This document shows positions 8,246 to 47,672 of a stretch of 64,000 bases of DNA, one piece after another. The notes under the pieces were generated by a model, which worked only from the letters and a program-made list of their open reading frames with translations, did no database searches and was not told where the DNA came from. The position numbers and the translations under genes were made by a program. Within the stretch, counting starts at the first letter, position 1. Every line of letters begins with the position of its first letter. Origin of the DNA: Pelagomonas calceolata (lineage: Eukaryota > Sar > Pelagophyceae > Pelagomonadales > Pelagomonadaceae); contig CAKKNE010000003.1 of NCBI GenBank assembly GCA_918797485.1, forward strand, positions 4,464,001-4,528,000. The letters are read 5' to 3'.

Positions 8246-9662
8246 TTAGTCCACGAACGGCAGTCGCCGGGACACCGCGCACCAGGCGGCCCACATGTCA
8301 GGGACACACCGCGGCGCGCGCCACGTCTCCTCGTTCGCGAACCACCCACAAATATCAGGCGGCGGGCCCGGCACGGTCCGCGCCGCCTCGCCGGCGCAGC
8401 CGCGCCGCCACGCGTCTTTGCGCCGCCGCAGCGCCGCGACCTGTGTGGAAATCAAATTTACGGGGCGTTTGTCCTGAATCACCGCGTCACCCTCCACGCC
8501 ATCGACGCGACACCTGCTCGACGACGTGGCGATGTCGGTTCCTCGCCGCTCGACGGCGCCAGCGCGGCCACGTCATCGCCGAGAAATGACTTAGTGAAGG
8601 TTTATCGGGTGCACCCGACACACTGGTTGACTTCCACACAGGCCGCGACGTCCGCCCGCGACGTCGAGGCCCGCGCGACCCAGGCGTTCAGCGCGTTCTC
8701 CGCCGTGCCGTGCAGCACGGCGTCGTAGGGCTCCACGTGACGGAGCGTTGCTCGGTCCGCCGCGGACAGGGTGGCGGGCCGCGGCGCCGTCGCGAGCGGC
8801 AGCAGCCGGTCCGCGTCCCAGCCGTAGGCCGCGGCGAGGAGCGCGAGCGACTCGTCGGGCCGCTCCGCGACGAACGGCAGCCTGCGCGGACGCGCGACCG
8901 CTCGCCGCCGTCGCCGCGTTTGAGTCAGACGCCGCGGCGGCGCCAGCGCCCGGTCGCGAGCGCGTCGAGGCGGCTCTCGAAGTACGTGGCGAAGCACGGG
9001 TCGGCGGGCGCCGCCAGCCCCACGACGGCGCGCGCCTGGCGCGAGAGGCGGAGCGGCGCGACCGCCCGCTGCGTCGCGGCGTGCGTCGCGGCGGAGGCGT
9101 TCTCCGCGACGCGCAGCAGCGCGCGGAGCGGCCGCGGCGCCCAGGCCCCCACGAGCAAGTCCATGGGGTCCCGCACGTGCACAACGAACTGACCGAAGGC
9201 CGCGGGCACCATCGCCGTTAAAAAAGGGTGGTACGCGCCGGGCGCGAGCCATGCTTCTCGCGGCCAGCGCCCGCCCCGCAGGGCCTGCCGCACGGGCCTC
9301 TTGCGAAAGTCCCACTCGGGGTCCGCGCAGCACGGGAGGCGCGCGTCCGCCCCATCAATTTGGGTCTGGGCCAGCGCGTACGCGAGCGCGGCGCGCGCCG
9401 CGGCGCGGCGGCCGCCCGCGGCGCCGAGCAACACGAGGCCCGGGCCCTCGCGCCGCAGGGGGCTCCGGAGCCGGCTGTGCCGCGCGCCCAGGCGCGTCTG
9501 GAGTTTGAGTTTCGTCAGGCGGCAGCGCCGCGCCGACGGCCGGCCCGCCTCCGCGACCAAGGCGCCCCCGTCGTCGGCCAGCTGGAACACGACCACCGCG
9601 ATGGTCGCTAGCGTCGCGCCCGTGGCGCCGAGGAGCAGGGCGAGCGCGGCCCAGCGGCGCAT
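8246..9662 (-). CDS. Putative Golgi sulfotransferase, Gal3ST/HS2ST-like
   Basis: Type II membrane protein: Met at 9662 is followed by MRRWAALALLLGATGATLAT and a hydrophobic stretch. Proposed exons 9662-8944, 8881-8650 and 8440-8246 join to 381 residues. Support for a sulfotransferase: HVRDPMDLLVGAW resembles the 3'-phosphate box (LRDPxxRxxS) and VAERPDESLALL resembles the ERFDESLxLL box of galactose-3-O-sulfotransferases. The first intron (8882-8943, 62 nt) has only GC donors in the needed phase; GRW joins LPFVAERPDE. The second (8441-8649) is a textbook introner. The typical 5'-PAPS loop near the N-terminus is poorly conserved, so acceptor and even activity are uncertain. Confidence 0.65.
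8441..8649 (-). mobile_element. Introner A: 201-bp TIR transposon serving as an intron
   Basis: The element is 8441-8641, from CTGTGTGGAAATCAA to TTGACTTCCACACAG, flanked by the 8-bp duplication GCCGCGAC at 8433-8440 and 8642-8649. In gene sense the duplication is GTCGCGGC, so the left copy supplies the GT donor and the inverted repeat supplies CAG. Splicing (8441-8649, 209 nt) leaves one copy and restores RADVAALRRRK. Nearly the whole length aligns with the element at 33747-33949. Confidence 0.93.
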
Positions 9663-10912: not shown

Positions 10913-11802
10913 TTACGACTCTACGACCCCAAAGGCCACGTCCGTGGCCCCCAGCAACCCGGCCACGGTGGCCGCGAGCGCTCCCTTCGCGTCGGGTAGC
11001 GTGAAGGGCGTGTACCCCTTGGCGTCGGGCGCGCCGTCGACGAGCAGCGCGGCGCCGGGCGCCCAGGGCACGCGGTCTCGGAGCGCGTCGAGGCGCGCGG
11101 GCGTCGCGACCTATGCGGAAATCAAACTTCAAGCGCCCCCGTCCCATCCCTTCCTCCCGCTACCGCGCCTGCTCGACGACGGCGGAGGTCACGGCGAAGG
11201 CAACCATTCTCAGTAACCAACCGGTCGATTTCCGCACCGGTCGCGACCGCGACCCTCGGCAGCGGGCTCAGCGTCGCGAGGGCGCGCTCCTGCTCCTTCC
11301 GATCTTTGTGCTTGCCGAAGAGCTTGAAGACGCGTCGGATCTTCGCGTGGTCGCGGAGCGTCCTGGCGAGGTCCGCGGCCCGCCTGGCCGACGTACAAAC
11401 GACCACCACGTCGACGTTGCGGCCGCACCCGCGCCGCACCCGCGCCGCCACCGCCATCTTGACATCGCCTTCGGGAGGTGCGCAGCGCGCCGGCAGCGCG
11501 GCCGCGTCCGCGTCCGGCAAGAGGTTTCGGAGCCACGCGGCCCACGCGGCACCGTCGCGCGGCGCCGGGCGCGGCGGCTTCGGCTTCTTCGCGGGCCCGC
11601 CCGCCGTTTGAAACGTGACCGGCGCCGTCGACGCCGGTTCGGCGGCCGCCGCGGCGCTCTCCTCGAGGATTGGCGGCGCGCCGGGCGTGGCGTCGTCGTC
11701 GTCGTCGTCGTCGTCGCGCGGCCGTTTTTTTTTTGTCCGCTTCTTTTTCTGGGCTGCTGGCTCCTCATGTTCGAATTGCGGCTCGTCGAGGTCGTCGTTC
11801 AT
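10913..11802 (-). CDS. CMSS1: CMSS1/Cms1-like small-subunit processome protein
   Basis: Nucleolar protein of the Cms1 family, found with 90S pre-ribosomes. Exons 11802-11248 and 11110-10913 give 250 residues, near the family size. N-terminus is acidic and Lys-rich (a run of eight Asp encoded by a GAC/GTC repeat, then PKKPKPPRP-like basic stretches), followed by the helicase-like core: VDVVVVCTSARRAADLARTL, FKLFGKHKDRKEQ, and RVAVATPARLDAL, which corresponds to VGTPGRIKEL in animal CMSS1. That last motif only appears after removing the introner at 11111-11247; the unspliced frame runs into RLVTENGCLRRD instead. Confidence 0.82.
11111..11247 (-). mobile_element. Introner in CMSS1-like gene, exact 8-bp duplication
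   Basis: Flanked by GTCGCGAC at 11103-11110 and 11240-11247. Inverted ends in gene sense: CGGTGCGGAAATCGACC and GTTTGATTTCCGCATAG. Donor GT is the start of the left duplication, acceptor is the element's TAG. Removal of 137 nt restores VAVATPARL. The inner CGACGACGGCGG/CCTGCTCGACG portion resembles the core of introner A. Confidence 0.9.
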
Positions 11803-12333: not shown

Positions 12334-15174
12334 ATGCGGGCGGTGACCACCGCGCTGCTGCCGCGGGCAGCCCCGCTGCTCGCCGCCCTGGGCGCGGCCC
12401 AGCACCACGGCCGCTTCAGCCGCCGCTTCCACGCGCGGCCCTCCTTCGCGGGCCAGGAGCGGACCTGGCGCGCGGACCGGCCCGTCGGGCTGGACGGCGT
12501 GAACCGGAGCTGGCTGCCGTCCCCGACAGAACTCGAGGCCCAGCCGCTCGTGCGACGGTCGAAGCAGTTCGCCCGGGACCTGCGGAACTGGGGCCGCTAC
12601 GCCAAGGCGCTGCGCTGCGTCGCGTGCAACGCGCCTGTAACAGAGGTGCGCACGCCGTGCGTCGGGCTCGGCAGCCTCGTGGTCAGCTTCGCGCAGGCCT
12701 ACGCCCGGGCCGTCGCGGCGGGAAACACCACGCGGCTCGTGCAAGACCAATGCGGGTGGTTCGCCAAGGACCAGTCGCGAAGCTGCTCCGAGCTGTTCGG
12801 GTGCTACGCGCCGTCGCTGCAGGAGGCGTGCCCGCCCGAGGCCTGCGGCGTCCTGGCGAAGCCGTCCGGCGTGAAGCTGCTGCGGAAGTGGGGGCCCACG
12901 CTGCACTTCAGCGCCGTGCTCTACCTCGCGCTCCACGGCCACCTGGGGCTAAACCGGGAGGCGCCGCCGCCCCTCGGCCGGGCGGACTGCGCCGTCGTCC
13001 ACGTCCGCCGGGGCGACGCGTGCGTGAACACCAACCGGCGGTGCCACTCGAACGACGAATACGTGGAGGCCGCCCGACAGCTGAAAGACGCGTACGGCCT
13101 CGAGTCCCTGCGCGTCGTCTCGGACGACGGGAACCTCCCCCTCGACCGGTGGCGGCGACTGGGGTACGACGTCGAAGTCCTGTCGCGGAGCGAAGCCTAC
13201 GACGTGTCCCGGTCGGTGGCCGGCGCCGCGAAGAGTCTGCGAGACCACTTCCCGGAGAAACGCATGGCGCGCGGGGAGCTGGGCCCCACCGCCACGCAGG
13301 ACGCGCTGCGCGACATGCTCGGGCCGCGGACGTTGGAGTGTCGTGCTCCGCGCGGAAATATAGACCAGCCGTCCGCGCCGGCATACTCGTCCTCAGATTT
13401 GATTGCCGCGCAGGTCGCGCGTTCGTCGGGTCCTTTTCGGCGAGCATGTCCAAGGCGATCTTTGCCCAGTTGCTGATCAGGCACCGGCGGGTGCCGCCCT
13501 TCGTCAGCGTCGGCGGCTGCGTGCGGCAGGCGCGCTTCTTCGACGCGGACGCGGAGGAGTACCCCCGCTGCGCGGCGAGCCCGCCCACGGAGGCCGAGCG
13601 GAGGCGCAACCGGGCCGCGGCGCTGCGGGAGCGCCGCGAGCGGTTCGGGCGGGTCCAGAACCGCGACACGCTCCGGGACCCGCCCGTGTGCGCCGCCAGG
13701 CTTCTGGGGAAGCGCGGCGTCCTGGCCGTCGCCGGCGCGGACCTCGGGGCCGCGGCGGCCACGGTGTTTTTCACGGCGGTCGTGAACCACGCGCTGCACG
13801 CCGAGCGCTTCGACCTGCTGCCGTGGGCGTCGCTGGGGCTCGCGGACAACCCCCTCGTGTACGACCGGGGGCGGCACGACGGCAAGCAGGGCCTCTGGGC
13901 GACGTACTTTGAGCCGCTCGAGAGTACCGCGCGGCGCCGCGGGGGGGCCTTCGCCGGCGCGCCGCGGCGACGGCGCCGCCCGCGCGACGCGCCGCCCGCG
14001 CAGGCGTCGCGCTGCGCCGCGCGTTCGACGACGGCACGATCGCCGACCCGCGCGATCCGGAGCGGGGCGACGTCGTCTGCGCGACGCTGCGGGCGCCCGA
14101 GCTCTGCGCGGAGCTAGACACGTGCCCCCGCGTCGCGTCGTCCGTCGCCCAGTTTTTCAACAAGACCGTCAACGCCAGCCAAGTGCCCGTCTTCCGCAAG
14201 TCCGGTCAGTGGCGCCTCTGGATGCACAAGAAGGCCCCCTGGAACGTGAGGGCGTGGTACTACGGGCCCAAGCGGACCCTGCCCCGTAATCTGACGACGT
14301 ACAACGCGTCGTGGTTCGCGTCGCAGCGGAGCCGGGCGCATCGCGCGTTGCAAAAGTACGTGCGGTTCCGGGCCGACGTCGTGAAGCGGGCGGCCGAGGT
14401 GCTGGACGCGCTGGCGTCGTCGAAAGAAACGGACTTGCTCGCGGTCCAAGCAGGCGCCAGCAAGTGCCTGGTCGGCGTCCACGCCCGCGGCACCGACGCG
14501 GACGGGCGGCGCAGCGTGCAGCCCGTGGAGGCCTACGTGGCGGTACTGGCGCCGGTGTGTAGCCAGCTGGGAAGCGCCCTCGCGGTCTACGTCGCGACCC
14601 GCGCGGAAATCAGGCGGCGCGGCGCCTTCGGACGTCGGCTCTGACGGCGTCTCGGCGCTTGCGTCGTCGTCGAGGATGAATTTTCACACAGGTCGCGACG
14701 GACGACGTCGCCATCGCCTCTCATCCTCGCTGGCGCGCGTTATCTTGCCGAGTGGCCGTGGCGTCCGGCGTCCGGCGCGGGTCCGACGGCAAGGCAGCCT
14801 TCGAGGTCCATAAGGACCGGCACGCGACGAACGTCGAGGTGCTGACGGACGTCGCGGTGTTGTCTTCGGCCGACGCGCTGGTGCACGGCGCGTCGGCCGT
14901 TTCCGAGGCGGCGCAGTGGCTCGCGTGGCCGCCCGTGTGGAGACAACCCTGTGGTTCCGCGTCAGGGGCTTATTGATCTCCGCACAGGTGGCCCCGGCTC
15001 CACGGCGCGTCCGCGCATCTCGAGTTTCCCCACGCGTCTCGGGTGATTACGACGCGGCTGGTGGAGGCGTGCGCGGCGTCGGCCTCGAGCCAATGGGTCG
15101 CGCGGCTGCGCGCGTGGACGTTGGCGCCGCTGGGCGAGGCCCCTACTTCATCTGCCAGTGGTGCGGTTGTGTAA
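12334..15174 (+). CDS. Tandem two-domain fucosyltransferase-like glycosyltransferase
   Basis: Five proposed exons (12334-13339, 13414-13923, 14004-14590, 14692-14924, 14988-15174) join to exactly 840 codons. Domain 1 (to about residue 400): LVVSFAQAYARAVAAGN, VVHVRRGDAC near 222, and FVGSFSASMSKAI. Domain 2: LAVAGADLGAAAATVF, GVHARGTD near 662, AVYVATDD near 700, VLSSADALVHGASAVSEAAQWLAWPRLHG. H-x-R-G/R-D, ATDD and the final S-x-x-S box are the three motifs of the GT23/GT68/GT65-type fucosyltransferase superfamily. N-terminus is a signal or anchor. Two GT domains in one chain is unusual; they could be two genes if the first intron is wrong, but FVGSF is needed to finish domain 1. Sugar and acceptor unknown. 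Confidence 0.75.
13340..13413 (+). mobile_element. Short introner in the double GT gene
   Basis: 74 nt, GT-AG. Ends CCGCGCGGAAATATAG and CAGATTTGATTGCCGCGCAG form the inverted repeat; flanks GTCGTGCT and GTCGCGCG are a decayed 8-bp duplication. Splicing joins LEC to RAFVGSFSASMSK and changes frame correctly. Confidence 0.8.
14591..14691 (+). mobile_element. Introner with exact duplication GTCGCGAC in the double GT gene
   Basis: Element 14599-14691 (93 bp) between GTCGCGAC at 14591-14598 and 14692-14699. Ends CCGCGCGGAAATCAG and GATGAATTTTCACACAG. The spliced product reads AVYVATDD, completing the conserved ATDD motif that the insertion splits. Confidence 0.92.
14925..14987 (+). mobile_element. 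63-nt minimal introner in the double GT gene
   Basis: Flanks GTGGCCGC (14925-14932) and GTGGCCCC (14988-14995), 7 of 8 matching. Ends CCGTGTGGAGACAAC and TTATTGATCTCCGCACAG. Little more than the two inverted repeats remains. Splicing gives QWLAWPRLHGASAHLE. Confidence 0.88.
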
Positions 15175-31355: not shown

Positions 31356-33209
31356 ATGCGCAGAGGCAACGCGTCAGCGCCGCCACGCGTCTCGGGACGG
31401 CAAGGGCAACGGGATGCCGACGCCGAGGCCCAGCTGTCCAGGCTGGGCCTGGTCCTGGCGGTGCTCGCCGTGGCCGCGAACGGCTGCGTCCAGCCCGACG
31501 AGTGGTTTCAAAGTGTGGAGATTGCGGCTCGCGACGTGTTCGGCGCCAAGATCTGGACGCCCTGGGAGTTTGGCGGCTCCGCCGCGCTGGGCGACGCGGT
31601 GCACGAGCCGTGCCGGTCCGTGAGCTTTCCCGCTGTGGCAGCGCACGCTCCTCTGTTTCTGCTGCGCCTCTGTGGCGGGTCCATCGCTTGGCCGCGACTC
31701 ATCATGATGATACCGCGGCTCTGGGCCCTCGTCATCAGCATACTGGTGCACGACCGCCTACTCGGAGAGGTGTGGCGCGCGGCGGGCCTCGACGACGAGG
31801 GCGTCCGCGTCGCGAGAGCGCTGCGCCGGACGTCCTGGGCGTGCCTCGTGCTCGAGACGCGGCCCTTCTCGAACGTCTACGAGACGTTCGGCCTGGCGCG
31901 GACCCGGCGTGGAAACTCGCGCTCGCCGACTGGAGGTGGTGCCTCCGCGCCGATGGGCGAGATAACGCGGCGATGACGTGTCGACGTGTCGAGCCGCCGT
32001 CGACGCACGCGAGGACCGTCGGGAAAGTGCGTCGCGGTCACTGGCCGTGTCCGCGCAGGCGCTCTGCGCGCGCCTCGCCGCCGAGGGTCGGAGCGCGGCG
32101 CTGGGCGCCGCGACGGCGGTCGTCTGCTGGTGGCGGTTTGACTTCGCCGCCTTCGCCGCGCCGCTGGGCCTGTACTGCGTTGCGTCTTCGTCCAAGAGTA
32201 CCGCGAAAGCCATCGCGACGGGCCTCGCGACGTTCGCGGCCGGCGCTGGGCTCCTCGTCCTGGGCGACACCCTCTATTTCAACTCGATCGATGGCTCCGT
32301 CGTCGTCGCGCCAGTGTGCAAGTCAACTTTCGCGGCGCCTTCGTGCTGAATCATCGCGCCCACCTCCACGCCGTCGACGCGATACCTGCTCGATGGCGTG
32401 GACGGGGCGGCTCGCTAGCGCTCACGTACCCGACTCACTGGTTGATTTGCACGTAGGTCGCGCCGTGGCGCAACTTCCTCTTCAACGCTTCGACGGAAAA
32501 TTTGCGACGGTTCGGCCTGCACCCGCGCTGGTTCCACTTGGTTGTAAACGCGCCCTTCCTCTACGGGCCGCTCCTGCTCTTTTTGGGAGGCGCTCGCAAA
32601 AGGAGTCCCTTCGGTAAAGCGCTCGACGCCTCCGCGGTCCTGGGCCTCGCGGCGCTCTCGGTGGCGCCACATCAGGAGCCGCGCTTCCTGCTGCCGACGG
32701 CCTGCGCCGTCTTCGCGCGGGCGGCGCCGCGCGTCGCACGATTGAAGTGGAAGCGGAAGTTTTACATGTTTTGGCTGGTATTCCATCTAGCCGTTGCCGG
32801 CTTCTACACCACGATCCACCAGGCTGGCCTCGTGCCGCTGCTCCGGCGCGTCGGCGCGGCGCGCGGCGCCTGCGACCACGTCGCGTTCGTGGGCACCTAT
32901 TTGCCGCCTTATTCGGTGGCGGGGCCGCGCGCCGGCGCGGAGCTGTTCCTGCACGACTTCGAGAACGACGCCGCGGGCCTCGGCCGGCGCGTCGCGGCCC
33001 TGAAGCGCGAGCTCGACGGCGGCGCCTACGGACGGTGCGCGTCGCGGCGTTTGTACGTCGCGGTGGCGGCGCCCGCGCTGCCGGCGGCGCGCGCCGCGTT
33101 TCCCCGGCTGGGCGCCGCGGTCGCTTCGTTCGCACCCCACTTCTCGGGCGAGCTCCCGCCGGCGTCGTTCTCCCAGCTCGTGCTGGGGCTCTACGAGGCG
33201 CGCTTCTGA
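31356..33209 (+). CDS. PIGZ: PIG-Z/SMP3, GPI mannosyltransferase 4
   Basis: Adds the fourth, side-branch mannose to GPI-anchor precursors in the ER. Exons 31356-31895, 32059-32304 and 32457-33209 give 512 residues, all junctions in phase 0. Visible: VQPDEWFQSVE (HPDE-type catalytic loop with Gln for His) near 45-55, TPWEF, ETFGLALCARLAAEG, VVVAPWRNFLFN, and VAPHQEPRFLLP, which is the PIG-Z/SMP3 form (PIG-B has HKEFRF); also TIHQAGLVPLL and GTYLPPYSV. About ten hydrophobic segments. Both junction motifs, ETFGLA and VVVAPW, are rebuilt only by splicing. Confidence 0.9.
31896..32058 (+). mobile_element. Introner-like intron 1 of PIG-Z, GC donor
   Basis: 163 nt. Only one GC and no GT begins a codon in the possible window. 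Left part GCGCGGACCCGGCGTGGAAACTC has the layout of the 14591 element (8-bp flank, then CC-GCGYGGAAA). Right end GTGTCCGCGCAG. Flanks GCGCGGAC and GCGCTCTG have diverged. Confidence 0.65.
32305..32456 (+). mobile_element. Introner C in PIG-Z, exact duplication, opposite orientation to A and B
   Basis: Element 32313-32456 (144 bp) between GTCGCGCC at 32305-32312 and 32457-32464. Ends AGTGTGCAAGTCAAC and GTTGATTTGCACGTAG. The core (CTGAATCATCGCG, CCTCCACGCCGTCGACGCG, CCTGCTCGATGGCGTGG) matches introners A and B but about 55 bp of their right half is missing. Here the core reads in the sense of the host gene, in A and B antisense. Confidence 0.93.
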
Positions 33210-33302: not shown

Positions 33303-35115
33303 CTACCGCCGAACCAGCTTCCGCAACCAACGCGGCTTCGACACGACATCCAGCGCGGGGCCGAGCCACGCGTCGACCCACCGCTCCGCGCCGTACCAGT
33401 CATCTGTCGGCACGGAGGTCCCGGCGACGTTGATCGAGTGGCGGCAGGGCAGCGTGAGCTGTAGGTCGGCCTCGGGGAGGTGGGCGGCGGACAACGGTAC
33501 CACGGAGTCGCCGAGACCCTCCGGGTTGCCGGACACGCGGCCGTACGCGTCGGCCGCCGTCGCCGCCTCGACGTCGCCGCCTCGATCGCCTCTGATCGCG
33601 TCCGACGCCACCGTGATGAGAGCAACGTCCGGCCACGCGGCGCCTGCAACATCCGCCAGCACCCCCCTCGTCGCGCAGGGCGTCCCTTCCGGCGGAGGCA
33701 CGTGCGGCGCCCCGAGAGTCACGACGCCGACGGTCCGCGCGGCCACCTGTGTGGAAATCAAAATTTTACGGCGCGTTCGTGCTGAATCATCGCGTCGTCC
33801 TCCACGCCATCGACGCGACGCCTGCTCGATGGCGTGGCGATGCCGGTTCCTCACCGCTCGACCGAGCCAGGACGGCTGCGTCATCGCCGAGAAATGACTT
33901 AGTGAAGAATTGTCGGGTGCACCCGACGCACTGGTTGATTTCCACACAGGCGGCCACGGCCCCGTCCAGCAGACACGCGAGCTTCGCGAGCCAGCCGCCC
34001 GCGGAGTGCCCGACCAGTAGCACGGGGCCGTCCACCTTTCCTAGCGTCTCGGAGACCTTGTCGGCGTACCAGCGGAACGCCGGGCTCGTCCGCCGGGCCT
34101 TCTCGAACAGCAGGAAGTCGGGGTCGCGCCCCCCCCGCGTGAGCACCTGGAGCCAGTCGCCCCGCGCGACCGGCACGACCTCGACGCGGAAGCCGCGCCG
34201 GCCCAGCGCGGCCGCGAGGCCCGTCTCCTCAGGAAGCCCCAGCGGCGTCGCGTAGTCCGCGGCGTCGTTGCCGAAGCCTGCGCGGGGCGCCGTCGGCGCG
34301 AATTCATACCGCACGAAGGCGCCGGCCCCGGACCCGGCAGGACCACGACCGTCGGCGGATTCACGAGCGGCGCGCGCGCCTTCGGGGTCGGCGCCCGGCC
34401 CGCGAGCCGGCCGGGCCAGAACTCCGGCTCGACGATTTCCTCGACTTCCTGGGCCGCCGGTGTCAAGAGCTGCAACAGGGCCTCGCCCGCCGAGAGCGCC
34501 CACGTCTCGTCGTAGGAGGAAATGCGGCCGCCTGCGTCGTAGGAAGAGGTTCGGGCGCGGCCCAGGGTTTGTAACAAACGCGGACGGCGCGCCGGCCCCG
34601 TTAAGCGTGTACGTCGTCGTGCCGTTCAGGTCCAGGCGCGGCCGCCAGGGGAGAGCTAGGGTCCCGACCATGCGCCACGACGCGGTGATCGCGGTCCCGT
34701 CCACGGCGAGGGCGTAGAGGTCGACGCGCCTCCGCTCCGACGGGACGAAGCGCTCGATCCACGGGTCGAGGTTTCTCAGGTTCGCTTCGAAGACGTCCAG
34801 GCCCCGGAAGGACAGCGTCGGGTCCGTGAAGACGCACGCCTCGTCGTACAGTTCGGGCGTGATCCTGCCGGACCAGAGGTACTCGTTCCTGAAATCGTCG
34901 GCGAGGCCCGCCTTGACCTGCTGCGGCGTCAGGCTCGCGAAGCGGCGCGGCCGCTTTTTGTTCGCCGGTTTCGCGCCGCCGTTCAGGTTCACGAGCTGCG
35001 TGAGGCCCGAGACGATGGTCTTGGTCGCGGCCGACGTGCTGCCGTAGCCGCGGCCCTGGGAGAGGGCGGTGGCGGGCAACACGCATGCGAGGAGCCTCAG
35101 CGGCGCGTCAACCAT
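33303..35115 (-). CDS. DUF2358 / alpha-beta hydrolase fusion, probably plastidic
   Basis: Four proposed exons (35115-34593, 34531-34334, 34277-33958, 33746-33303) join to 494 residues. N-terminal SnoaL/NTF2-like DUF2358: LADDFRNEYLWSGRI, FTDPTLSFRGLDVF, WRMVGTLALPWRPRLDLNG, GRISSYDETWALS. Then an alpha-beta hydrolase: TVVVLPGFGND (oxyanion strand), LLVGHSAGGWLAKL (nucleophile elbow), VVTLGAPH, GDSVVPL and a late CRHSINVAG giving a possible catalytic His. The three introns are 61 nt (GC-AG, no in-phase GT), 56 nt (GT-AG) and introner B. The N-terminus (MVDAPLRLLACVLPATALS) looks like a signal peptide. Lipase or esterase activity is likely; substrate unknown. Confidence 0.8.
33747..33957 (-). 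mobile_element. Introner B: 203-bp TIR transposon serving as an intron
   Basis: Element 33747-33949 between GCGGCCAC at 33739-33746 and 33950-33957 (GTGGCCGC in gene sense). Perfect 15-bp inverted ends CTGTGTGGAAATCAA / TTGATTTCCACACAG. It aligns with introner A over nearly its whole length, including GAGAAATGACTTAGTGAAG and CGGGTGCACCCGAC. Removal restores DGAVAARTVGVVTLGAPH. Confidence 0.95.
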
Positions 35116-46613: not shown

Positions 46614-47672
46614 CTAGGAAATCTCCCGCAGGCGCCGCTCGACGGCCCGCCGCACGCACTTCTCGTCGGCCGCGTCGAGCGCGTAGCAGTGGAGGCCCTT
46701 TTTGATGACTCGCGCTCGCAGCACGCAGCCCCTGCTGAGGTACGCGGGCACGACGGCGAAGGCGGACGTCGGCGACTGCAAGAAGACGTCCGCCGAGGCC
46801 AAGTGCGCCCAGTGGTCCAGGACGGAGGCCGTGGCGTCGGCCCCGTTGAGGTGGACCGTGTAGTTATGTGCTCGATAGACGTCGAATGCCTCCGGCGACG
46901 CCGTCCCCCGCATCACCTGTGTGAGAAATCGACCAGTGAGTCGGGCGCACCAGAGACGCCGTGAAACTTTGATTTTCGCACAGCGCGTCGCGCCGCCCCG
47001 CCCGCGATGCGACTCGAGGGCGCTGAAGACGTGCACCTCGGCGCGCGGCCCAGCCCGCGCCGCGACCCAGCCCAAAGCATCCACGAGACACGCGTCCGAG
47101 ACCCAGCGCAGCGAGGGCTGGACACTGACATCGACGTCGCCCCTTCTCAAGTGAGCGGCGACGCGGACGGTACCTTTTCTGGCATATGTCAGTCGCGCGC
47201 GCCCCAACCGGCACGCGTTGCCGCGTCGCAGATCCGCGAGCCACGCCTTGTCTACCTTCGGGGCGAGCGGCACGTGCTTCTCCGTCCAGAGGACGGTTTG
47301 GTTGCTGGCGAGGTCCGCGAGCGCCGCCGCGCGCTGAATTCCGGCGGGCTCGCGCACGACGACGGCGTCCGTGCCAAGCGCCCATGCGACGCATTGGCGT
47401 TGGAGCACGCCATGCGCCTGCGGCGTGAGCGGCAACGTGCCGATCGCGCCGCCGTAGGCGTAGTTTTGCTCCCTTGCGAACCGCGCGTGCTCCGCGATGT
47501 ATTTGACCGTGGTGCCCACGCCGTCGACGTGCAGAACGCTGTAAAGCTTCGGACGGTGAGGAAGAGCGCACGCTGGGCAGTCGCCGGCGCAGGTCTCCGC
47601 CTTTGTGTGGTGGCGGTTGGGCCGCCGGTGCCGGCGCGCCGCCGCTGCCATCGCAACAAAAAACAATCTCAT
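46614..47672 (-). CDS. HxRRGD-motif glycosyltransferase (fucosyltransferase-like)
   Basis: 327 residues after splicing (exons 47672-46992 and 46916-46614). The motif VRVAAHLRRGDVDV near residue 170 is the H-x-R-R-G-D donor-binding loop of GT11/GT23/GT68-type fucosyltransferases; EVHVFSALES is the following strand, and ASADVFLQSPTSAFAVVPAYLS is the C-terminal D-x-x-x-x-S/T-x-S-x-F box. N-terminus is a short hydrophobic anchor (MRLFFVAMAAAA) then basic residues, as expected of a Golgi type II protein. The intervening KIKVSRRLWCARLTGRFLTQ is introner sequence, in frame but foreign to the family. Sugar specificity not known. Confidence 0.72.
   Translation of the reverse strand: MRLFFVAMAAAARRHRRPNRHHTKAETCAGDCPACALPHRPKLYSVLHVDGVGTTVKYIAEHARFAREQNYAYGGAIGTLPLTPQAHGVLQRQCVAWALGTDAVVVREPAGIQRAAALADLASNQTVLWTEKHVPLAPKVDKAWLADLRRGNACRLGRARLTYARKGTVRVAAHLRRGDVDVSVQPSLRWVSDACLVDALGWVAARAGPRAEVHVFSALESHRGRGGATRCAKIKVSRRLWCARLTGRFLTQVMRGTASPEAFDVYRAHNYTVHLNGADATASVLDHWAHLASADVFLQSPTSAFAVVPAYLSRGCVLRARVIKKGLHCYALDAADEKCVRRAVERRLREIS
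46917..46991 (-). mobile_element. Minimal introner (67 bp) with GC donor
   Basis: Ends in gene sense CTGTGCGAAAATCAAAG and CTGGTCGATTTCTCACACAG; inside only CGGCGTCT and GTGCGCCCGACTCA, which match the outer parts of introners A and B. It is an internal-deletion derivative. Flanks GCGACGCG and GTGATGCG match at 6 of 8. The left flank begins GC, so the intron is GC-AG; being 75 nt and open, it could also be retained. Confidence 0.78.

Follow-up and report, generated by a model that had tools for sequence, protein, structure and literature searches.

A transposon of Pelagomonas calceolata that is predicted to behave as an intron, and apparent variation at one of its insertion sites

Introduction

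A predicted gene of the pelagophyte alga Pelagomonas calceolata is interrupted by a short element with inverted ends, named here introner A, and the locus raises the question of whether a transposon can by itself have made an intron. The window analysed, a stretch of 64,000 bp, corresponds to positions 4464001-4528000 of contig C3 in a genome of 32,445,274 bp and 8 contigs. The original prediction held that the element is exactly an intron of the introner kind and that its insertion was recent.

Introner elements of Aureococcus anophagefferens were reportedly described by Huff, Zilberman and Roy in 2016. In the accessible portions of the literature, the co-option of splice sites and the insertion in both orientations are credited to Huff et al. 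2016 (PMC10228655), and direct repeats and terminal inverted repeats, both constant in length, are given for the Aureococcus introners (PMC7789003). For P. calceolata RCC100, the accessible text of the genome paper describes a 32.4-Mb genome made up of six nuclear contigs and, in addition, plastid and mitochondrion, and already ties a peak of introns of about 210 bp to introners, with a comparison to Aureococcus (PMC9481584). This was the only paper found in the introner literature on Pelagomonas.

Results

Element A and its host gene

The 201-bp element was found at positions 8441-8641 of the window, bounded by the inverted ends and the 8-bp duplication that had been predicted (Table 1); the ends differ at 1 of 15 positions, the two copies of the duplication are identical (8/8), and the end pair was also picked up separately as an inverted pair. 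On the minus strand the predicted intron runs from 8649 to 8441 and reads GTCGCGGC...CACACAG, with 8650 joined to 8440. Searching the window for the end with at most 4 or 5 mismatches in 15 bp next to an exact 8-bp duplication yielded 4 elements, and 0 were obtained with 30 shuffled ends; when 6 mismatches were allowed, the 30 shuffled controls gave 0.03 on average and 1 at the maximum. The structure of the window elements is far above chance. An Rfam scan of the window gave no match.

Table 1. Positions in the window of element A, its host gene and other members of the family
Feature	Position	Strand	Remarks
Introner A	8441..8641	-	Length 201 bp; terminal inverted repeats; host gene sense on the minus strand
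Left terminal inverted repeat of A, CTGTGTGGAAATCAA	8441..8455	+	Tip CTG; on sense strand, intron 3' end TTGATTTCCACACAG, acceptor CAG
Right terminal inverted repeat of A, TTGACTTCCACACAG	8627..8641	-	1/15 mismatch to left end
Duplication copy staying in predicted spliced message, GCCGCGAC (GTCGCGGC in sense)	8433..8440	.	
Duplication copy forming 5' end of predicted intron, GCCGCGAC	8642..8649	.	Donor GT at 8649-8648, minus strand
Predicted phase-0 intron, 209 nt (A plus one duplication)	8441..8649	-	Empty site in relative
Host gene exon 1, predicted	8944..9662	-	MRRWAALALL...DALATGRW; database homologues
Host gene first intron, predicted GC-AG, 62 nt	8882..8943	-	P0001, P0002, P0005 and P0006 (4/7 database ORFs) end just beyond border
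Host gene exon 2, predicted	8650..8881	-	
Host gene exon 3 to stop codon, predicted	8246..8440	-	
Older introner-like element, 129 bp	11111..11239	.	Exact duplication GTCGCGAC; mismatches per 15-bp end: 2 and 3
Older introner-like element, 93 bp	14599..14691	.	Exact duplication GTCGCGAC; mismatches per 15-bp end: 4 and 3
Degraded family relative	32312..32456	.	nhmmer E 1.2e-18 over first half, E 0.0011 at other end
Introner B, 203 bp	33747..33949	-	Duplication GCGGCCAC (GTGGCCGC in sense); near-identical database protein crosses site
Degraded 67-bp relative	46917..46983	.	nhmmer E 3.8e-05 and 0.0069 at the two ends; no duplication recognised

The host frame, read on the minus strand from 9662 to 8246, encodes 381 amino acids once the 62-nt intron and A with one duplication are excised. 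If A is retained, the frame meets a stop 12 codons inside the element and the product has 332 amino acids in total. The original proposal that the sense duplication begins with GT, that the element ends with CAG and that excision restores the reading present before insertion was borne out on the DNA, by this 381-aa frame and by the empty site described below. The only family match of the host protein was a weak one to galactose-3-O-sulfotransferase (PF06990, E 0.013), under the cut-off.

The whole conceptual protein gave 7 database matches (P0001 to P0007) among the best 8000 candidates, and exons 2-3 gave 5 (P0008 to P0012) of 650 candidates. Most of these entries bear source codes alone (ena, jgi and lgn, for instance) and presumably come from environmental assemblies. 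P0003 and P0009 run from exon 2 into element A in the same way as the window, P0009 (8 members) being the entry listed as window-encoded; P0010 (7 members) and P0011 (27 members) pass from an element copy that differs somewhat into exon 3. Since P0003, P0010 and P0011 also carry the insertion, it is not private to the genome of the window.

P0008 (5 members), which is 72% identical to the host protein over 136 aligned positions with one gap, is uninterrupted across the A site. At the protein level it appears to represent the empty site for A, which would make A a gain rather than an old intron. The first residues of P0008 do not match exon 1; they could be unspliced sequence from ahead of the acceptor of the first intron, which would point to genomic DNA as the source. 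The 103-aa entry P0012 has a dehydrogenase-like start fused to host exon 3 at the introner site, and is either an assembly chimera or a rearrangement.

Members of the family in the genome

The exact 15-bp end occurs in 1,562 copies genome-wide (790 + 772), compared with 0 for the reversed-pattern control. Elements with both 10-bp tips exact numbered 225 for spans of 183-213 bp and 91 for spans of 60-90 bp, and controls gave 0 for both. Among the short elements listed, at least two types of interior share the same ends, one resembling the 203-bp family and another that contains GGGCGCCC and AACCTAACTCACTGG blocks. Within the window, the duplication is exact in four elements (starting at 8441, 11111, 14599 and 33747), and two more are degraded (32312 and 46917).

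Elements were sampled from 30 loci chosen by similarity to A, from 30 loci and 20 regions on contig C1 chosen by the exact end, from the window and from one C4 region; C1 is over-represented because loci were picked there by the exact end. Among 61 end-bounded pairs in the first loci, the 8-bp duplication was exact in 45, had one mismatch in 9 and two or more in 7, and its sequence varied between loci. The count of copies with 8-bp duplications that had been proposed as a check came to hundreds of copies, with 45/61 of the first pairs exact. When no more than one duplication mismatch was allowed, a limit exceeded by 7/61 pairs of the first loci, 75 pairs were kept, 56 of them exact. Removal of a near-duplicate locus and of a 414-bp tandem span left 73 elements; element 14599-14691 does not belong to this set.

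The 39 alignable full-length copies, in a sample partly picked by similarity to A, diverged by 1.5-8.5% from the family consensus; 2 of 41 full-length sequences (40% and 44% from the consensus) had other interiors and were excluded. Element A, at 8.5%, shares the highest value of the 39 with one other copy. This divergence does not support the view that A was inserted recently, and neither does the presence of the insertion in the database proteins P0003, P0010 and P0011.

Two arrangements were observed in the sampled loci. At C2:3731640-3732053 (L019 1501-1914), two 203-bp introners stand in tandem with three copies of the duplication TCCGCGAC between and around them. On C4, around 3808378-3808915 (L009 764-1699), elements of 199, 200 and 199 bp with exact duplications lie within about 940 bp, the first with a different interior.

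The duplication and the coding strand

In order to assign a coding strand to each of the 73 elements, codon usage was scored in both flanks, to a maximum of 240 bp each, and the duplication was not a criterion. The codon model was a small one, built from 27 ORFs (50,304 nt) of the window and two C4 stretches, and these training stretches also contain 5/73 of the test elements. On the inferred coding strand the duplication starts with GT in 50 elements, GC in 22 and GA in 1 (n=73), against a flank background for GT plus GC of 17.3%. GT or GC was found at one or the other end of 56/56 exact duplications. The opposite, antisense end has GT or GC in 22/73 against a background of about 18%, and a target preference that is symmetric in part is possible. 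A 55-bp member of the set (window 14933), with one duplication mismatch, may be a chance find.

After exact excision, the frames inferred separately for the two flanks matched in strand and register in 60/73 elements; the 13/73 misaligned junctions comprise 4 on the same strand in another register and 9 on different strands. The best frame was free of stops in 45/73 exact joins, compared with 18-24/73 for joins off by 1-2 bases, and 28/73 retained a stop in the best frame despite exact excision. Predicted intron phases were 0 in 36 elements, 1 in 16 and 2 in 21. Excision is predicted to leave the coding sequence intact, for copy A from its 381-aa frame and for 60/73 elements from these flank frames. 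At the DNA level these data (GT or GC in 72/73, frames in 60/73) agree with the original assignment of A to the transposon-made introns of the introner kind. With intron status taken from the codon-usage test, we infer that one genome holds many similar introns at unrelated sites, a feature by which introners are recognised.

The trinucleotide at the sense-3' end (n=72) was CAG in 70 elements, TAG in 1 and CGG in 1. In raw counts, AG occurs at 71/72 sense-3' ends and at 67/72 of the other tips. Orientation relative to the sense of the gene was clear for 37 full-length elements: 24 point in one direction and 13 in the opposite one. No slower decay of the sense-3' end was detected over 72 elements: it carries 29 mismatches vs 32 at the sense-5' end, and per element the two ends were the worse one in 18 vs 19 cases, with 35 ties. 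An end repeat retained for splicing once inserted should decay more slowly on the sense-3' side. The result argues against a strong role of the end after insertion, or else the copies are too young for a difference to show.

Element B and its near-identical proteins

The predicted spliced frame at B continues a hydrolase-like gene, and related database entries carry PF10184 or PF07819. P0013 (110 members), which matches the full query at 99% identity, is uninterrupted across the B site, as is P0015, a 66% identical relative of the B gene. Judged from these proteins, the B site is empty in both. In P0018 (94 members), P0014 (51) and P0017 (1) the element is at the same position as in the window, and P0019 (41) appears to carry it with one residue altered ahead of the element. 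P0016 (6) shows ...GAVAARCVEIKILRR, which corresponds to the opposite end of the element and begins one codon further on. This points to an independent event in which the element, facing the opposite way, entered a target starting with GC 3 bp downstream.

A short intron (VVVLPG / GFGND) on the minus strand just upstream of 34278 is present in the window, P0017 and P0018 and missing from P0013, P0016 and P0019; it is apparently polymorphic too. The latter three proteins share a linked residue (GFGNDK vs GFGNDA), and their first residues correspond to the unspliced frame of the window just ahead of GGRISSYDETW. The absence of the upstream intron, the linked residue and the unspliced start together favour, but do not prove, that P0013, P0016 and P0019 are genomic alleles rather than products of spliced RNA. 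If P0013 does derive from RNA, it is instead direct evidence that B is spliced. The near-identical proteins suggest three states of the B gene site: an empty allele, the insertion of the window type and, 3 bp away, an independent one in the reverse orientation.

Search for an autonomous partner

Target duplications of hAT transposons are 8 bp long, a length found in other superfamilies as well. The 8-bp duplication of the family accordingly fits a hAT derivative (MITE), with the same reservation that the length is common to other superfamilies. Genome searches with transposase families gave 1 match for the hAT dimerisation domain, with 0/14 control genomes matched. There were 0 matches for KDZ and for the P-element-like RNaseH, for both of which the controls were silent, 0 for MULE, with 3 controls matched, and 0 for IS1595/Merlin, with 1 control matched.

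A single-copy hAT-like open frame is located on the minus strand of C4 (4499877-4502021; L062 5878-8022), with PF05699 at the C terminus as its sole Pfam domain; comparison with solved structures gave no match. In the 15 kb around it, the frame was not bracketed by any pair of introner ends accompanied by an exact duplication. This region showed only scattered 10-bp tips with 1-2 mismatches, one pair of which forms a 132-bp introner.

Two leads to a longer element were discarded. Two ends 1 kb apart on C1 turned out to come from separate units, one a 203-bp element and the other a stretch of 73 bp that is bounded by ends but lacks a matching duplication. Spans of 208-6000 bp in the sampled loci with at most one duplication mismatch proved to be a tandem pair and two pairs joining the ends of different elements. 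In these limited searches, covering the families named above and the sampled loci, no partner with these ends and a transposase was found. Pattern scans for viral carriers were empty in a set of viral contigs from which records near the genome of the window may be absent.

Discussion

Proposed mechanism and alternatives

We consider A to be an intron made by a transposon, with a probability of roughly 0.92: a putative non-autonomous, MITE-like DNA transposon whose inverted ends would double as splice acceptors and whose predicted splicing restores the message. The observations that bear on this reading are the ends, the duplication, the copy number, the GT/GC rule on the inferred coding strand, the restored frame and the empty site at the protein level. 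A transposase would insert the element and duplicate 8 bp of target. Both ends read ...CACACAG outward and would supply a 3' splice site in either orientation, since the two ends are inverted copies of each other. The end repeat TTGATTTCCACACAG may also provide a branch point (TTGAT) and a pyrimidine tract (TTTCC). The duplication, with its two leading bases on the sense strand of the gene, would furnish the 5' splice site (GT or GC), and the spliceosome of the cell would then excise the element with one duplication and restore the old message.

One alternative is an ordinary MITE lying unspliced in a gene that is broken, or whose frame was misjudged; in its favour, the only family match of the host gene is the below-threshold one to PF06990 (E 0.013). 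Against this stand the GT or GC on the inferred coding strand in 72/73 elements, the frame restored by exact excision and the conservation of both flanks of A in an element-free relative, which make such an insertion highly improbable. The GT/GC rule could itself stem from the target choice of the transposase alone, and the antisense end is indeed above background too (22/73 vs about 18%). The constraint, however, falls on the upstream end, as defined by the direction of coding, in 72/73 elements, and a transposase with a symmetric target could not sense the direction of the gene; this one-sidedness renders target choice a very unlikely explanation.

If the transposon had landed in an intron that already existed, it would have created none. 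The host gene does seem to have another intron (8943-8882), but the duplication of A coincides precisely with the borders of the predicted exons, and the coding sequence of P0008, apparently an intronless orthologue, is continuous at the A site, with the same continuity at B in P0013 and P0015. We give this hardly any credence. Just as little can be granted to a spread as RNA by reverse splicing instead of as DNA, which the accessible part of one paper puts forward for fungal introners (PMC9860276): the inverted ends, the locus-specific 8-bp duplication and the occurrence of both orientations relative to the gene all speak against it. The transposon-made intron is the reading retained below.

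Relation to known introners

In its proposed mechanism the Pelagomonas family matches known introners, and it belongs to a kind already described. A survey, reportedly of 2025, that covers introners and their horizontal transfer may already include this family. As in the Aureococcus introners, so far as the accessible text describes them (PMC7789003), the Pelagomonas elements have terminal inverted repeats and direct repeats of fixed length, and in Pelagomonas the target duplication of fixed length would supply one splice site. Intron length, about 210 bp, is likewise similar to that of the A. anophagefferens introners, and the P. calceolata introns of this length class, as they appear in the available part of the genome paper, are very probably the same family as A, given the agreement in intron length, genome size and contig layout (PMC9481584).

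The share of GC among the Pelagomonas duplications is 22/73. High values are also given in the accessible portions of papers on Aureococcus anophagefferens, where GC-AG introns make up 39.6% (PMC3033335), and on the introner introns of Micromonas pusilla CCMP1545, with 43.5% GC donors (PMC4815162), the latter, unlike Pelagomonas, being a green alga. The remaining comparisons come from the part of one paper available to us (PMC9860276). There, the 4-bp duplication of Symbiodinium supplies the 5' splice site and the element carries the 3' site, the same division as predicted for Pelagomonas, where the duplication has 8 bp. The Pelagomonas element is unlike one Aureococcus sp. family of the same source, in which both splice sites lie inside the element and 12 bp are added to the message. 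Introner families are described there as lacking mutual homology, save in recently diverged species of one genus. Parallel intron gain, as far as the accessible texts go, has been reported in fungal introner-like elements (PMC4457414) and is treated for Daphnia (PMC4202315).

Significance

The apparent variation at the B site is the most interesting part of these results. A joint reading, which we hold tentatively and at somewhat less than even odds, is that in Pelagomonas the 15-bp end serves as a full splice acceptor in either orientation (with branch point, pyrimidines and AG), that an insertion beside a GT or GC in the coding sense would be an intron from birth, and that the family may still be mobile in the wild population, where an empty B allele, an insertion with a GT donor and an opposite-facing insertion with a GC donor 3 bp away would coexist.

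The one-sided GT/GC rule provides a statistical test for introners that does not require RNA. The predicted introns described here suggest that a transposon is filling the genes of a small ocean alga with introns that come ready-made, a process visible from DNA alone, and the empty site, together with the apparent variation in the population, could allow the birth of introns to be watched directly.
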